Shown here piece by piece: positions 3,001-49,121 of a DNA stretch of 64,000 bases (position 1 is its first letter; the number at the start of each line of letters is the position of its first letter). Made by a program: the position numbers and the translations under genes. Source of the DNA: a virus. A model generated the notes under the pieces. That model did not search any database and had not been told where the DNA came from. It worked only from the letters and a program-made list of their open reading frames with translations. The stretch lies in IMG/VR virus record IMGVR_UViG_3300042914_003164, positions 45,691-109,690 of that record. The stretch is one strand, 5' to 3'.

Positions 3001-6000
3001 CACAAACCAAGGCAAACCTGCAAAATGCGATAAACAATGCCAAACAGTCTACTTTCCAGCTTACAAGAGATAATCTGCAAGAGCTTGAGCGCGAGCTTGA
3101 GGCCGTTCGTTCCTTGGTTGCAGCCGAAAAATCTGTAACAGCAGAGCAGGAAAAGCAGTCAAAGCTCAGAAAGATTTCCGGCGAGAATCTTCCACGTATC
3201 AGGCGGGACACTCTCTCTGGTCTTCTTGGCGATATTCGAGAGTCTGGCGGTGCCGGTCGCGTGCTGATGGGCGGCAGGAGTGCCGAAGGCGCAATTGAGC
3301 AAATCGTTCAGACCTTCAACCGCAGCGTTGGCACTGGAGCTACGGCTGGCAAGGCCGGTCAACAACTGGGCCTAAATGATCTTGCGAAAGTCTCCAAGGC
3401 TTCTACAAGAGAGCTTGAGCTGCTATCGGAAACTCTGACAATGGTTCGCGCTGGAATGCGGACTACTGACAAAGGCTTCGATCAGATCGGTGACACGATT
3501 GCTCGGGTCAATCGCCAGATCCAAAGAACTGATCCCGATGCCGACTTCCTGACCCGCCGGTTAGGCGTCAGGGGCGGCAGGGCGGCCAGTGAGGGCCTGA
3601 TTGGTGGTGCGTTCCCCCTCCTGTTCGGGCAGGGCATTGGAGCGGCTGCTGGTGGTGCTGCTGGTGGTGCTCTTGGCGGTGCTGCTGGCGGGATGCTGGG
3701 CTTCGGCCTGTCCCTGACTGGCACGGCGATTGGCACGGCGGCTGACAACTTGATGCAGGCGGCTCAGGACACGGGGGACATGCTCCGCGACCTGACGGGG
3801 AACTTTGATCAGATCAAGGAAGCTGGACTGCTTGCAAGTCGGACTCAGGAGAAGCTGGTTGAAAGCCTGATTCAAGGTGGCGAGAAAACCGCTGCATATT
3901 CGATCATTCAGGCGGAGCTGAATAGAAAACTTGGCGGAGAAGGTGTTTCCAGGCTTCGCGCCGCAGCTGACGCTGGTGATCGCATGAAGCGTGCAATGGC
4001 TGAGCTTGGTATTCAAATCCAAGAAGCTGTTTCCGGCCCTCTTGCAGCACTGCTCAACTGGGTTTCTGGAGTTGTCGAAGAGGGCAACAAGGTCAACAGA
4101 TATGGGCTCTTGTTACAGCAGCTGCCGCCAGAGAGGGCTCAACAACTTCGTCAAGAGACTCTGGGGGCTGTCGCTCAAGCAGGGCAACTCAATCCCTTCC
4201 GTGTAAGGTCTCCTCTGCTTGGCACTCAAAATCTTGAGCCAGACGAGGGAGAAGTTGCCCGCATTGCCACACTTGGCCAGCTCTCCGCAATTCTTGCCAA
4301 GTTTGAGGCTTTTGTCCCATCTACTCCCCAGACAGAGGAGGAGAAGAGGTCGGCTGCGATAAGGGAGGCCGAAGTTGAGGTCTCTCGCGCCCAGCGCGAT
4401 CTCCAGGCTGTCTCCAGAGAGCTTGAAAGCATTGACATCCTGAAAGGCTTTGAGCAGCGCATTGTTGCTGCCAAGAGAGAGCAGGAAGATATTGATCGCC
4501 AAGCTTTTGAAGCCCGCCGTGACTACGAGCGTCAGATTGCGGACATTCGTGAAAGCGTAGAGAATAGGGTCTCTCAGATCAATCAAGAAAATAAGCAGAA
4601 AGAGATTGACCTGATCGTTAAGCAGGGCGAGATCCGTCAGGCTCAATTCAGGAATGCTGCTCTTGCGATTCAGGGCGAGCTTGCTGGTGACGAGCTTGCA
4701 TCCAGCCTTGCTGATGCTGTTAGCACCTATCTCGGTGCTCAGCTTTCCGCGCAAGACCAGATTGAGCAGCGCCGCGCACAGTTTGAGCTTGACCTTGCTA
4801 ACCAAGAGATTGAGATTGGTAAGTTCAAAATTGACATTGCCAAGAGTGTGTCAAGGTTAAATCTTGATACAAACGAGAAAATTCAGGCTATCAATCTGAA
4901 CATCGCCAGGAGAAACGAGGACGCGGCAAAGAACACTTTTGAATTTGAGAAGAAGATTGCCTCGCTTAAGTTAAAGGCAACTACCAGGGAGCTTGTTCTT
5001 TCGCGGAGTCAGGATGAAATCGACCTTGAGGCGCTGAGAACGCGCAACGCTTCCCTGCCGAGCAACCCGGTGCTAGATGCGCAAGTAAAGGTGCTGGAAA
5101 CGAGAGTTGCGGAGACCAGGAAAGCGACTGACGAAATCCTGGGCATGATCAAGGAGGTGGAGGCCATGCCCCCTCCTGCGCAAATTCGCCCTGTTGCGCC
5201 AATTTCAGCTAAATCCGTAAGCACTGCTGGCGTTGATAGGGCCTTCGCAAGGGGTGTCGCTCTTAGCAGGCAATTCCAAGAGCTTGAAGACCAGCTTGTT
5301 GCCCTAGTGAAAGCTGGGGATGCCCAAGAGTTAGTCAATCAACTTGACAGAATTGCGCTCACCGCTGGCAGGCAGCTCGCCACATCACTGTCTGATGCAG
5401 TCAAGGAATATGGAGTGGCGGTCGGAGACCTGAAACCGATCATTGATGGCGTTGACCAATCCTACGAAGAACTTCGCAATTCCTTTGCTCGACAAAAGCG
5501 CCCAGTTACCCCAGAGCTGGAGAAGCTGCTTGAGGGATACCGCAAGGCACAGATTGCACTAGAGGAACTTGCCCCTACGCAAAGGTTCTACAACGATGCC
5601 ATAAGTGGCTACACAGGTGAGATTGATCAGCTCAAAGGCTCGATTAACGATCTCCTTGGCCCCACGTCAGCTTATGAAAAAGAACTTCAGCGTATCAATG
5701 AGTCTGGTGGCATCCAAGTCAATCCAGAACTGAATACCAGGCTTCTTGAGGCTGCGGCAAATACTGACAGGCTTAGGGAGAAGCTTGAGGCGCTCAACGC
5801 CTTGAACGATCTTGCAGCTGGCTGGACTGATTCGTTCATTAGCTTCAACAAAGAGCTTCTCAAGGGTGAGGGCTTGATCAAGTCTCTTAAGACCTTCTTG
5901 GAGAGCACGGCGGATAGGGCTCTTGACTTGATCCTTGAATTTACCCTGCGTCCAATGCAGGAAAAAATGTTCAAGGACATGGCGAAGTTTCTTGGCTTTG

Positions 6001-29953: not shown

Positions 29954-30892
29954 TCAAACTGCAGTAATTGAAAAGCTTTTTACAATAAATCTAAGCTTGT
30001 TAGTGATGATCTGCAGTTTTTCCCTTACCGCTTGAGGAGTGCATCCAATTTGCTCAGCTATTTCTTTTGTGGAGAGCTGGTCTTCGCCTATTCCATACTT
30101 TTGCTTTATTATTTGTTGCTCTGACTTCGTTAAAGCATTTATCGTCATCAATAGAAAGTTAATCTTTTCGCAGGTATCCTCGTTTTCTCTTATCTCAGAC
30201 TCAACGTCAGCGCTAATAATATCTGCCAGCGAGCAGGTGTCTCTGAGGTTTGCCCTTCCGCCACTTGGTTTGAGGTCAAAAGAGATTATTACGGGATTCA
30301 AGGCCACTGCTGTTTGTATCTTCTCCGGGCTCTCTTCGTTAATAGCTTCGGCTATCTCAGTAAAAGATGGCTCTCGCATCAGCTCTGCGGAAAGCCTCGC
30401 TTTTGCCTCTTTCGCTTGCTTGATAGTCCTCTGTATATGCGCTGGGACCTTGATAGCACCTTCTTGTGATTCAATTGCTCTTGTTATGGCCTGTCTGATC
30501 CACCAGTAAGCGTATGTACTGAACTTGTAGCCCCTGCTTGGCTCAAACTTTTCCGCTGCTCTTGCCAAGCCTATAGCACCCTCCTGCATTAAATCCTGCA
30601 AAGTCATGTGAACTTGCCTTGCCTGAGACTTTTTTGCAATCGTGACTACAAGCCGCATGTTGGCCGAAATCATGCGATTTCTGGCTTTCAGTCCCCTCCT
30701 GGCAATTCTTCTTGACTGCGGATCAAGAGCCTTTAGCGATTCAGCAAGATTTGCGTCTGATACCTGATCAGCAATTTGATTCTCCCTCAAAAGCCTCATC
30801 ATCTCCTGAACCTGCGTACCAAGGATTATCTCTTCGTCGCAAGTCAGAAGAGGGACTCGCGCTACATCACGCATGTAGTCCTCGAAGCTCAT
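29954..30892 (-). CDS. RNA polymerase sigma factor, group 2 sigma-70 family
   Basis: 312 residues. Region 1.2 (EDYMRDVARVPLLTCDEEIILG...QEMM), region 2 (ANMRLVVTIAKK, DLMQEGAIGLARAAEKFEPSRGYKFSTYAYWWIRQAI, the -10 recognition and melting helices), region 3 (VPAHIQRTIKQ) and region 4 (STKEIAEQIGCTPQAVREKL, the -35 helix-turn-helix) are all present in order, so it should be a complete promoter-specificity subunit. The N-terminal pattern is that of cyanobacterial SigB/C/D-type factors, which suggests capture from the host. ATG overlaps the ThyX stop. It probably directs host RNA polymerase to phage promoters. Confidence 0.93.
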   Translation of the reverse strand: MSFEDYMRDVARVPLLTCDEEIILGTQVQEMMRLLRENQIADQVSDANLAESLKALDPQSRRIARRGLKARNRMISANMRLVVTIAKKSQARQVHMTLQDLMQEGAIGLARAAEKFEPSRGYKFSTYAYWWIRQAITRAIESQEGAIKVPAHIQRTIKQAKEAKARLSAELMREPSFTEIAEAINEESPEKIQTAVALNPVIISFDLKPSGGRANLRDTCSLADIISADVESEIRENEDTCEKINFLLMTINALTKSEQQIIKQKYGIGEDQLSTKEIAEQIGCTPQAVREKLQIITNKLRFIVKSFSITAV

Positions 30893-36615: not shown

Positions 36616-36927
36616 CTACCACTCCGGCTCTGGCATGTCGTCATCGTCGCTGGCTGGCAACTCCAGCATCTCCTCCAGTCTTTCGATCTGGACCGCTTGG
36701 AAGTCGATTGGCGGCATAGGCATCCTCCTGAGGTTGCGCTTGCTGTTCGTTGATTGTTCGATGCCGTTCACGTCGCAGTACCGCTCGTACCAGTCCCTTA
36801 CCATGCTTGGGGTCACGAAACCCTGAAGCAGGTTGGCAACCGATGGCACGTCCTCCCCCTTTTCAAAGAGCAGCTTTGCGGTGATCCGCAGAATCCGGTT
36901 CAGGCTGGTTGCGCCTTTTGTGCTCAT
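36616..36927 (-). CDS. Leftward protein with acidic tail
   Basis: 103 residues from the ATG at 36925-36927 (an in-frame start at 36972 would add 15). Helical N-terminal half (LNRILRITAKLLFEKGEDVPSV) followed by a possible helix-turn-helix (FVTPSMVRDWYERY) and a C-terminus of Asp/Glu/Pro. Divergent from the Rad52 gene 70 bases away, so it may be a small regulator. Not recognised. Confidence 0.55.
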   Translation of the reverse strand: MSTKGATSLNRILRITAKLLFEKGEDVPSVANLLQGFVTPSMVRDWYERYCDVNGIEQSTNSKRNLRRMPMPPIDFQAVQIERLEEMLELPASDDDDMPEPEW

Positions 36928-36978
36928 GGGTGGCTTTGCACTCGTAAATATGGTAGGATCAGAGGCGTACATCAGTTT

Positions 36979-36991
36979 GGGGTGCGACCCC
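36979..36991. promoter_or_regulatory. Short palindrome before the Rad52 gene
   Basis: GGGGT GCG ACCCC lies 8-20 bases upstream of the GTG start at 36999 and between two divergent genes. It could be an operator half-site pair or an RNA hairpin limiting translation. Confidence 0.4.
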
Positions 36992-36998
36992 GCGATTC

Positions 36999-37772
36999 GT
37001 GAACATCAACGCTTTTACAGAGAAGCAGATCCAAGAGCTTAACCAGACTCTCTCTGGTGCCGCTGTCAAACAAAGGGAGCAATCTGGTCGCAAGCTTTCC
37101 TACATTGAAGGCTGGTGGGCGATTCGTGAGGCAAATCGCATTTTTGGCTTTGGCGCTTGGGACCAGAAACTGGTTGACATCAAGTGCGTTGCCGAGAAAG
37201 AAAGGAAGATTGGCCGTGACAAAAGGGATGGGTGGGGTGTTTCCTACATCGCAACCGTTTGTGTCGAAGTTGCAGGCGTTATTCGTGAAGGCGTTGGCGC
37301 TGGTCACGGCATTGACGTTGACCTTGGCCTAGCTCACGAGTCTGCTATCAAAGAGGCTGCCACTGATGCAATGAAACGTGCTTTCATGACATTTGGCAAT
37401 CAGTTTGGCCTTGCTTTGTATGATAAGGATCAGCAAAGTGTTGAAGATAAGCCGCTCTCCACGGAAAGCGTTTCTTCTGAGGCTGACAAGGTAAATCAGG
37501 CGTTCATGGACAAGCTCATGAACAAAATGCAAGAATGTGGAATCGACTCAAACGGCATCAGGACCCTTAAGCATATTCTGAGGGTTGAAGATTTCGATCA
37601 AGTCAAGGAGCCCATCCGTGACAAGCTGATCGCAAACCTTACCCCGGCTTATGCTGAAAAGCTGAACCTTGGCCAAAACAGCAAGGGCGATCAGGTGATC
37701 GAGATCATCGCAAAAAAGCTTGAAGAGTCAACCGCGAGCCTCCAACAAGCGGCAGACGACGCTTTCGGTTGA
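36999..37772 (+). CDS. Rad52-family single-strand annealing protein
   Basis: 257 residues, GTG start. Residues about 30-150 show the Rad52/22 layout: SYIEGWWAIREANRIFGFGAWD, a strand pair WGVSYIATVCVEV, REGVGAGHG, then AHESAIKEAATDAMKRAFMTFGNQFGLALYD. Anneals complementary single strands for recombination and repair. The C-terminal 100 residues are a separate helical domain. Followed by a coiled-coil partner and an exonuclease, the usual recombinase-exonuclease pairing. Confidence 0.92.
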   Translation: MNINAFTEKQIQELNQTLSGAAVKQREQSGRKLSYIEGWWAIREANRIFGFGAWDQKLVDIKCVAEKERKIGRDKRDGWGVSYIATVCVEVAGVIREGVGAGHGIDVDLGLAHESAIKEAATDAMKRAFMTFGNQFGLALYDKDQQSVEDKPLSTESVSSEADKVNQAFMDKLMNKMQECGIDSNGIRTLKHILRVEDFDQVKEPIRDKLIANLTPAYAEKLNLGQNSKGDQVIEIIAKKLEESTASLQQAADDAFG

Positions 37773-46747: not shown

Positions 46748-47488
46748 ATGCTCAACAAAAAAGACCCATACTATGGGGCTCTGCTCATAGAAGAGGCGAA
46801 GCTTCATCTTGGTACTGTTATGGCGGGCCAAGACTCGGAGCCGTTTTTTTCTGCAATGCTTCAAATTGTTGAAGATCGAATTTATCTTAAATACACAACA
46901 CTCCGAAACAAAGAAGTAGAACTCAAAGGCATCAAAGACTTTTTGCAAAGCGTTTACTATGGCCTTGGCATTAAAGACATGGAAACGTTCTTGTGCAATG
47001 TTGTCAAGTCTGCCTTAAAGGAAAGGTCAAGAAATAAATACGCCCATAGATTTATTGAATGGCTCAGGGATCAGGATCCCTCTTTTCAGTTTCCCGACTC
47101 TTACTTTGAGTTTAGGCGTGTAATGAGAATGATATATTACAACAAGCAAATGCCAAGACCGAAAAAGGGGCTTGCCTACAAAACGGCTAGATTCCTTTAC
47201 AATCAAGATCCAGAGATTCTGCAGCACATAGGCTACGGTAGAAGATACCTTACCGTTGAAAGCTGCTACTACGGAGAGGGCTACGAGGAAAAGCGCAAAA
47301 CCCTTAAGCCTATCAAGCTTTACCAAAATCCAACGCTGCACCAGCTTGAAGAAGTCGCAGAAGCGCTTTTCGGGAGGTTTGGCCATTTCAAAGCGGAGCG
47401 CCTCGCTGCTATGCTGACTGAGCGCTGCGAGCTTTCTAAGGCGCTAAAACAAAGTCAAGAGGATGAACAACTTGCAGACGGCAACTAG
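46748..47488 (+). CDS. Conserved-looking protein ahead of the RuvC-like gene
   Basis: 246 residues. Helical, basic, Tyr-rich in the middle; no signal peptide or motif recognised. It overlaps the resolvase gene by 26 bases, so the two are translated together. A direct repeat CAGTCTGT (46685 and 46708) lies in the 72-base leader and could be a regulatory site. Confidence 0.65.
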   Translation: MLNKKDPYYGALLIEEAKLHLGTVMAGQDSEPFFSAMLQIVEDRIYLKYTTLRNKEVELKGIKDFLQSVYYGLGIKDMETFLCNVVKSALKERSRNKYAHRFIEWLRDQDPSFQFPDSYFEFRRVMRMIYYNKQMPRPKKGLAYKTARFLYNQDPEILQHIGYGRRYLTVESCYYGEGYEEKRKTLKPIKLYQNPTLHQLEEVAEALFGRFGHFKAERLAAMLTERCELSKALKQSQEDEQLADGN

Positions 47489-47969
47489 ATCAATCGGTGT
47501 TGACCCTGGTGTTTCCGGTGCAATAGCGATACTGGAAGGCGACAGGCTGATCCATGTATTCGATATGCCTGTTGTCGAAACAATGTCAGGAAAAAAGAAA
47601 AAGCGCAGGATCTCACCTGAAATACTGGTGGCAGAGCTTAAGCAGTATGTAGATGGTGTTAAAACAGTTTACATTGAAGATGTTCATGCAATGCCCGGTC
47701 AAGGCGTAACGTCGATGTTCTCTTTTGGTGAGGCTGCGGGGCTGGCGAGAGGCGTTATGGCTGGCCTCGGCCTTCCCGTCCAGATGGTTTCCCCTACCCA
47801 CTGGAAGCGTGGTCTTCGCCTTCCTCAGGGCAAGGATGCCTCTCGCGCTATGGCCGCCCGACTCTGGCCGCTGGAGGCCGCCCACTTTTGCCGAGTGCGT
47901 GATGATGGCCGCGCCGAGGCGGCCCTTATAGCTCTCTGGGGCATGACCAGTGCCAGGTCGGCCAGCTGA
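47463..47969 (+). CDS. RuvC-like Holliday junction resolvase
   Basis: 168 residues, RNase H fold. GVDPGVSGAIAI (D14), VYIEDVHAMPGQG (E72) and the C-terminal RDDGRAEAALIAL (D148/D149, E153) give the acidic metal site of RuvC. Resolves branched DNA made during replication and recombination and supplies linear genomes for packaging. No PTS-type targeting is needed. Part of a two-gene unit with the gene at 46748. Confidence 0.9.
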   Translation: MNNLQTATRSIGVDPGVSGAIAILEGDRLIHVFDMPVVETMSGKKKKRRISPEILVAELKQYVDGVKTVYIEDVHAMPGQGVTSMFSFGEAAGLARGVMAGLGLPVQMVSPTHWKRGLRLPQGKDASRAMAARLWPLEAAHFCRVRDDGRAEAALIALWGMTSARSAS

Positions 47970-48013: not shown

Positions 48014-48042
48014 TTGCGTTTGGGCGACCTACAGGCTATGAT
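48014..48042 (+). promoter_or_regulatory. Promoter of the cyAbrB gene
   Basis: TTGCGT (48014-48019), 17-base spacer, TATGAT (48037-48042). A GGC precedes the -10. Confidence 0.75.
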
Positions 48043-48068
48043 TTCTTGGTCGTCAACGATTTTCCACG

Positions 48069-48638
48069 TTGCCCCGCCCCAAAAGGACAGCCAGCGAGGC
48101 TGTCGAAACCCAACCCCCTACAACTGATACCACCGCTCAAATGACCGAAGCCACCGCCGAAAAGAAAGTGTCCGCTACCACCAGCAAGAAGGGCACCCCC
48201 GTCGAACCCGCAGAAGTTCTGCGCATTGCCTCTGAAATGGAGGGTCAGCCCGCAGACGTGGTAGCCAAGGAATGTGGCTATTACACTGAAACGACCAATA
48301 ACGCCACTGGCGAAGTTGAAGTTCGTGTAACCGCTGCTGATACCTCGGCCTTTCTTGCCGCTCTGCTGTCGGCCAAGGGTGTGAACCTGGCTCCCCCGGT
48401 TCGCGCAGCCCGTCGCTCCAACCGCTCGCCCATCGTCAAGATCGGCAAGACCGGCACCATCGTTGTTGGCGGTCGTCACGCCACCGTGGCCGGTTTTGAG
48501 TTCGGTGAAGGTGTTGACAGCCGCGTGCGTATCGAGTCCGAAAAGGGCAAGATCACCATTTTTGCCGCCACTCCTGACGAGTATGCGGCTGATGATGCCG
48601 AGCCCGCTGCTACCGAGGAAGACGACCTGGATCTCTGA
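48069..48638 (+). CDS. cyAbrB-type transcriptional regulator
   Basis: 189 residues from a TTG at 48069; the next ATG (48141) would drop the first 24. After a low-complexity start, residues about 45-110 match the cyAbrB core (AKECGYYTETTNN ... FLAALLSAKGVNL), followed by the C-terminal DNA-binding part (VKIGKTGTIVVGGRHATVAGF ... VRIESEKGKITIF). These cyanobacterial AbrB-like proteins bind host promoters and control carbon and nitrogen genes. The acidic tail (EEDDLDL) is an addition. Own promoter and terminator: an independent unit. Function in a phage would be host reprogramming or autoregulation. Confidence 0.8.
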   Translation: MPRPKRTASEAVETQPPTTDTTAQMTEATAEKKVSATTSKKGTPVEPAEVLRIASEMEGQPADVVAKECGYYTETTNNATGEVEVRVTAADTSAFLAALLSAKGVNLAPPVRAARRSNRSPIVKIGKTGTIVVGGRHATVAGFEFGEGVDSRVRIESEKGKITIFAATPDEYAADDAEPAATEEDDLDL

Positions 48639-48660
48639 TCCATTCCTGCATCCAGCAAAC

Positions 48661-48690
48661 AAAAGCGCCCTGGGAAACCGGGGCTTTTTT
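48661..48690 (+). terminator. Intrinsic terminator after cyAbrB
   Basis: Stem built on GCCCTGG/CCGGGGC with a GAAA loop and a run of six T; the outer AAAA/TTTT may extend it past a two-base bulge. The MazG-like gene starts nine bases later. Confidence 0.85.
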
Positions 48691-48698
48691 ATTTACCA

Positions 48699-49121
48699 AT
48701 GTCACACATTCAACAGGCCAAAGAGTTTCGCATTGTTTTCGGCCATCCAAATGTTCCGGGCAGGGAAAAACGATTTCCTGTGGACTTGGAAGAGAAGCTA
48801 AGGATGCAACTCTCGCTCGTCAAAGAGGAGGGTGACGAGTTCAACGAAGCGCTTGAGGAGTGGCTTTCGATTTCAAAGTTCTCTACCGAAGATGCTGCCG
48901 CGTTTGCCAAGAAACACGTTCTCAAGGAGCTTGCTGACCTGACATACGTTTGCTACCAGATGGCAGCCTTTCTCAGTGTTGATCTTGATGTTGCGCTGGA
49001 TCGTGTACATCAGTCAAATATGAGCAAGCTTGGCGAAGACGGCAAACCGATTTACAGGGCAGATGGCAAAGTGTTGAAAGGTCCTTTTTACAAAAAGCCG
49101 CATCTTGGGGATCTTATTTAG
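48699..49121 (+). CDS. MazG-like NTP pyrophosphohydrolase
   Basis: 140 residues, all-alpha. EEGDEFNEALEE supplies the ExxE metal site and KELADLTYVCYQ the following ExxD; MSKLGEDGKPIYRADGKVLKGPFYK is a C-terminal extension common to phage MazG-like proteins. Hydrolyses nucleoside triphosphates, possibly also (p)ppGpp in the host. The stop overlaps a convergent leftward gene by two bases. Confidence 0.85.
   Translation: MSHIQQAKEFRIVFGHPNVPGREKRFPVDLEEKLRMQLSLVKEEGDEFNEALEEWLSISKFSTEDAAAFAKKHVLKELADLTYVCYQMAAFLSVDLDVALDRVHQSNMSKLGEDGKPIYRADGKVLKGPFYKKPHLGDLI

Follow-up and report, generated by a model that had tools for sequence, protein, structure and literature searches.

What would a DNA-binding regulator of the cyanobacterial cyAbrB type be doing in a phage genome? 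The locus examined here raises this question because the original prediction placed on it a self-contained cyAbrB gene, whose product could reset host metabolism or stand in for a missing host protein. The window, meaning the whole 64,000-nucleotide stretch analysed, comprises bases 45,691–109,690 of a 109,690-base virus record. Coordinates of the features discussed below are collected in Table 1.

The reading frame is a conserved gene with a TTG start

The reading frame is confirmed as a real, strongly conserved gene of a cyanophage lineage and is under strong purifying selection. A codon alignment of seven sequences contains 553, 533 and 1,688 differences at first, second and third positions, respectively. 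The overall dN/dS is approximately 0.1 (0.11/0.70 against the relative L168), and in the C-terminal core dN is 0.01–0.10 against a dS of 0.7–1.35 among the pairs listed. TTG occupies the equivalent site in every relative compared, in keeping with the start codon originally proposed. An in-frame TGA (48039–48041) lies upstream of the TTG and is present in most relatives, making an earlier start impossible in the sequences that carry it. A conserved ATG at codon 25 is a possible alternative start. Upstream of this ATG, the corresponding counts for the N-terminal extension are 59, 84 and 137, and this third-position excess means that the extension is very probably translated.

Table 1. Features of the cyAbrB-like locus and its surroundings, with positions counted along the window.
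Feature	Position	Strand	Basis or remarks
Rad52-family annealing protein	36999-37772		PF04098 E=4.9e-34; in replication block
Upstream neighbour, RuvC-like Holliday junction resolvase	47463-47969	+	phrog_1770 E=1.8e-38
Sigma70-type promoter	48014-48042	+	TTGCGT 48014-48019, 17-nt spacer, TATGAT 48037-48042
Leader, -10 to start codon	48043-48068	+	26 nt, fixed length; almost invariant block TCGTCAACGANNNNNCACG
Inverted repeat CAACG-N8-CGTTG	48054-48071	.	Right arm ends on TTG start codon; candidate operator for autoregulation, or hairpin of the leader
Divergent cyAbrB-family protein gene	48069-48638	+	TTG start, 189 aa
N-terminal cyAbrB domain, residues 43-108	48195-48392	+	C69-G-Y motif; two small insertions relative to hosts; alignments
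Basic interdomain linker PPVRAARRSN, residues 109-118	48393-48422	+	R-x-x-RRSNR conserved in seven aligned members
C-terminal AbrB-like (swapped-hairpin type) domain, residues 119-167	48423-48569	+	PF14250 matches, hhalign
Acidic tail	48570-48635	+	Middle variable; ends in conserved LDL (LDF in L229)
Intrinsic terminator	48667-48692	+	7-bp stem 48667-48684 and T-run
Downstream neighbour, MazG/PRA-PH-type pyrophosphohydrolase	48699-49121	+	PF01503 E=6.8e-8

The protein belongs to a divergent subfamily of cyAbrB

By itself, the window protein scores 14.2 bits against the AbrB-like family PF14250, for which the cut-off is 25. All seven subfamily members compared match this family and four exceed the cut-off (L170, 30.2 bits; L171, 28.7; L177 and L178, 25.7), with L168 (24.8) and L172 (22.1) falling below it. 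When the phage profile is aligned with a cyAbrB profile using hhalign, the two match with a probability of 97.3 and E=2e-11, and the alignment is colinear over residues 43–167, covering both domains. The profile–profile score of 71.1 compares with a maximum of 19.2 in 100 column-shuffled controls. A profile of 78 picocyanobacterial cyAbrBs detects the window protein at E=0.0019 and L002 at 3.6e-6, the best value among 5,000 shuffles being 0.51. In the reverse direction, the phage profile detects cyAbrB genes in 288 of the 340 cyanobacterial genomes sampled, with a best E of 1.4e-13, where a genome was counted as positive at E≤1e-4. A scan of genome contigs with the phage alignment found nothing, and host cyAbrB proteins were retrieved with a cyAbrB consensus sequence as the query. 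Taken together, the relatives above the PF14250 cut-off, the profile–profile match and the reciprocal detection of host genes identify a divergent cyAbrB-family member. Assignment of the window protein to a divergent, phage-specific subfamily of cyAbrB is thus confirmed, though only via its relatives and profiles. The predicted family and the predicted phage location are borne out, and the two cyAbrB domains align in the same order. Membership of the Bacillus AbrB (SpoVT-AbrB) group was considered and rejected; the AbrB-like part of the window protein is C-terminal, and PF14250 is the sole Pfam family found for it.

The phage protein shares its two-domain order, the CGY-cysteine motif, the AKGV hinge region, an AbrB-like C-terminal domain and an acidic C-terminus with cyAbrB1 and cyAbrB2 (Synechocystis Sll0359 and Sll0822). 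It differs from them in having only 20–30% identity, a 42-residue N-terminal extension, a basic RRSNR linker, two N-domain insertions and a further insertion in the last beta-hairpin, and its gene has a private promoter and leader. C69 of the CGY motif is invariant in the phage subfamily. Alignment and published work on the host protein (PMC13421787) suggest that it corresponds to C34, the redox-sensing residue of cyAbrB2; glutathionylation of C34 is reported to abolish DNA binding (PMC13421787). Residues 109–166 have a charge of +5.9 and the acidic tail a charge of −10.4 over 23 aa, and overall the protein is acidic (pI 4.85). The tail had been described as an addition. It is real, but as an addition it is nothing special: non-pico (cyAbrB2-like) host proteins carry similar tails of 9–43 aa with charges of −3.5 to −31.5, which makes that of the phage protein ordinary.

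Structure prediction gives a well-folded N-domain (pLDDT 89, pTM 0.71) and a poorly modelled AbrB-like domain when treated as a monomer (pLDDT about 50–55), in which the order strand-helix-strand fits a swapped hairpin of the AbrB type. The AbrB structures 9a4b and 1yfb are the top two fold matches to this low-confidence domain model among 350,542 chains, at E values of 0.7–0.8 that are not significant. Fold searches with the whole model and with the N-domain against solved structures returned no significant match, and a sequence search for a solved structure of a relative found none.

The gene has a private promoter, leader and terminator

The gene had been predicted to have its own consensus promoter, with a left boundary at 48014, which is the first base of the TTGCGT hexamer. 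TTGCG and the 17-nt spacing are invariant in the seven phage sequences compared, and the letters of the spacer diverge. The −10 element appears as TATGAT, TACGAT, TAGGAT or TACTAT, with changes confined to its inner positions. Such a TAnnAT pattern, in which the positions that matter most are retained, is as would be expected of a true −10 element. The promoter is therefore conserved as predicted, but it is not a consensus one: the −35-like TTGCGT matches TTGACA at three of six positions, and a generic consensus scan misses the promoter for this reason. The pattern TTGCGN-17-TAnnAT has a single exact match within the window. A phage sigma-70 type factor is encoded elsewhere in the window (29954–30892, minus strand) and could read a TTGCG/TAnnAT promoter.

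Conservation extends into the leader, the last 20 nt of which have a mean identity of 93% compared with 74% for codons 1–12. A scan of viral contigs for the leader block TCGTCAACGANNNNNCACGTTG returned 12 stretches, 10 of them in contigs of the cyAbrB subfamily and two unrelated, and exposed a more divergent subfamily member, L229, that had previously been missed. The matches in L227 and L228, where a cyAbrB reading frame is absent, were treated as due to chance. Since the leader folds no better than shuffled sequence, a reading of it as structured RNA is unsupported, and an Rfam search of the leader yielded nothing beyond a sub-threshold match, located on the opposite strand. The arms of the inverted repeat are invariant in the relatives and its loop is variable, and CAACG-N8-CGTTG occurs once in the 109,690-base record. 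Its uniqueness in the record and its position across the start codon make autoregulation likely, with the repeat as a putative operator proposed from conservation and uniqueness. At the other end of the gene, the terminator has a folding energy of −16.3 kcal/mol (z = −3.1) and is retained in the relatives with altered sequence. The strong terminator thus holds up, as does the wider claim of a self-contained transcription unit, with a conserved promoter, leader, TTG start and terminator of its own.

Phage cyAbrBs occur in several forms

IMG/VR contains a near-identical copy of the window protein (99%), a relative at 82% identity (L002/L168) and others at about 61–70% (L170, L171, L172–L174, L177, L178 and L229). 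The gene is conserved in at least six further distinct phage contigs at 61–82% protein identity. Neither the window protein nor its relative L177 gave a match among 50,697 phage records. Two hits from the first viral scan, L003 and L004, were dropped because they encode a 506-aa protein of another kind, and their match, spanning some 50 residues, was due to chance.

A tree of 83 sequences, host cyAbrBs among them, places the seven phage sequences in a clade of their own, which has full support and sits on a very long branch (7.0). The split that joins this clade to the non-pico (cyAbrB2-like) host proteins has a support of 97/100. This tree-favoured placement is not upheld by the AU test, in which the alternative is not rejected (p-AU 0.36).

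These comparisons bear on the proposal that the phage protein replaces a cyAbrB missing from the host. The picocyanobacterial genomes checked match the phage profile only weakly, and the loci read encode only the pico-type protein, so that one type of cyAbrB may be absent from such hosts. Against this, cyAbrB genes are found in nearly all of the cyanobacteria sampled, and all five picocyanobacterial genomes checked have between one and five matches to the phage profile. Nor does the AU test uphold a grouping of the phage clade with non-pico host proteins. Given that cyAbrB is almost universal in cyanobacteria, a stand-in for a missing host protein finds no support, and we regard this role as very improbable.

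Host-like cyAbrB genes are present in at least 178 IMG/VR contigs. The 80 host-like phage proteins that were kept are 60–86% identical to a picocyanobacterial-type cyAbrB and intermix with picocyanobacterial proteins in the tree, whereas the window subfamily stands apart from them in its own clade. Like the window subfamily they are phage-borne, and in the sampled contigs the gene lies near terminase, portal, primase or recombination genes. Close relatives of the non-pico host type were not found in viral contigs. The window subfamily looks unlike a recently captured copy of the picocyanobacterial type that other phages carry. In L121 and L144, the host-like cyAbrB gene directly follows the large terminase gene, and in L117 two diverged cyAbrB genes (ORFs at 3381 and 3918) are adjacent on one phage contig.

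Other phages carry further variants. The uncultured Mediterranean phage MedDCM-OCT-S39-C11 encodes a protein annotated as AbrB family (BAQ94494.1; cyAbrB profile E=2e-7), which differs from the window subfamily in belonging to the Autographiviridae, in lying next to tail genes and in having no close similarity to it (E about 1). In gp246 of Synechococcus phage B23 (L087:2914–3342), a cyAbrB N-domain is joined to an unrelated C-terminal part. A 52-aa reading frame of Prochlorococcus phage P-TIM68 (L086:2998–3156, AIR93619.1) comprises only the cyAbrB N-domain (E=7.9e-16 against the host profile) and is a candidate dominant-negative of host cyAbrB.

A second explanation for the window protein is that it counters silencing, either by forming hetero-oligomers with host cyAbrB through its N-domain or by competing with it on DNA, and so lifts repression of incoming phage DNA. 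Host cyAbrB2 is described as a nucleoid-associated protein that binds broadly to AT-rich DNA and insertion elements and represses genes, and sigma factors are excluded from the regions it covers (PMC11368403); an interaction between cyAbrB1 and cyAbrB2 is also reported (PMC13421787). The model shows a well-folded N-domain in the phage protein, and this domain is conserved; the P-TIM68 reading frame has the N-domain and not the DNA-binding half. In the window subfamily, however, the DNA-binding half is retained under the strongest selection, unlike in a pure dominant-negative, and a phage with a GC content of 51.5% is not an obvious target for silencing. We therefore consider this role rather unlikely.

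The gene lies near the replication block of a cyanophage

The cyAbrB-like gene lies downstream of a block encoding a replication initiator/helicase loader, DnaB, a Rad52-type annealing protein, an exonuclease and SSB, and many genes of this replication and recombination region are also kept in the relatives. The resolvase immediately upstream differs within the lineage: the window, L170 and L171 have a RuvC-like enzyme there and L168 has RusA (PF05866) (L168:3889–4347), so that two unrelated resolvases occupy the same place. Mean identity across the lineage is 65% for the cyAbrB-like protein, similar to Rad52 (65%) and the exonuclease (66%) and above DnaB (60%), MazG (57%), the sigma factor (52%) and dNMP kinase (49%). 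The highest conservation among the lineage proteins compared (77%) is that of a reading frame of approximately 128 aa on the minus strand (36619–37005), which has an acidic tail and is without a Pfam match. The TerL, portal and scaffold genes are in the same record outside the window, as is a gene for an RtcB-type RNA ligase (L183:11288–12529; phrog_1075 E=3.2e-147).

We identify the virus as a cyanophage because its sigma factor and MazG are closest to cyanophage proteins and cyanophage proteins are among the closest to its portal. The sigma factor has its nearest matches in Synechococcus phages S-CBS3 and S-CBS1, MazG is nearest to those of S-RIP1 and related cyanopodoviruses (50–53%), and the nearest database matches of the portal include Prochlorococcus and Synechococcus siphophages. 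The lineage is an unclassified one, and the cyAbrB-like gene belongs to its core.

This setting is relevant to the predicted reset of host metabolism, in which the phage copy would bind host cyAbrB targets and redirect carbon and nitrogen genes during infection. Host cyAbrB2 does control carbon-uptake and nitrogen genes (PMC13421787), and the CGY cysteine, the apparent counterpart of C34, is invariant in the phage proteins. The gene, on the other hand, is core to the phage lineage and close to replication and recombination genes rather than part of a metabolic cargo, and with only 20–30% identity to host-type proteins its product may have lost their operator specificity. A metabolic reset is unsupported and, in our estimation, improbable. 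Position near the replication block and conservation of about 65% point to a regulator or nucleoid-type protein that is core to the phage, and a regulatory or chromatin-type role suits the setting no less well than a metabolic one.

A proposed role in infection

The best explanation, which we hold with a little more than even confidence, is that the divergent phage cyAbrB subfamily is a core component of its lineage and that its members are DNA-binding regulators or nucleoid-type proteins limiting their own synthesis. For the window protein, the likeliest role is that of a self-controlled phage regulator or chromatin-type protein. Expression would take place in the replication phase, with a host or phage sigma factor recognising the promoter, and the gene product would assemble into an AbrB-type DNA-binding dimer or oligomer. 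The AbrB-type domain and the basic linker could then bind phage DNA, host DNA or both, allowing the protein to act as a regulator or nucleoid-type protein. It may also curb its own synthesis via the inverted repeat that covers the start of transcription and translation.

A search of the open-access literature found no study of a phage-borne cyAbrB or of its function. Phage-borne Lsr2 in actinobacteriophages (PMC8612146) is the nearest studied parallel. There, too, a host nucleoid-protein family has been adopted by many phages, with group-specific synteny (PMC8612146). Lsr2 belongs to an unrelated family, however, and its phage copies fall inside host clades, whereas the window subfamily is far from host proteins. 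Full-length host-like copies, the divergent replication-region subfamily and N-domain-only fragments lie behind a broader, tentative reading, which we think possible without finding it probable. Several unrelated cyanophage lineages may have repeatedly acquired cyAbrBs and used them to take over or oppose host cyAbrB chromatin, in a cyanobacterial counterpart of phage H-NS/Lsr2 warfare. The description of cyAbrB2 as a nucleoid protein of cyanobacteria, one that coats AT-rich DNA, is itself recent. An altered cyAbrB that is core to a phage lineage and privately controlled, together with the many other phage cyAbrBs, would make the role of cyAbrB in infection directly testable.
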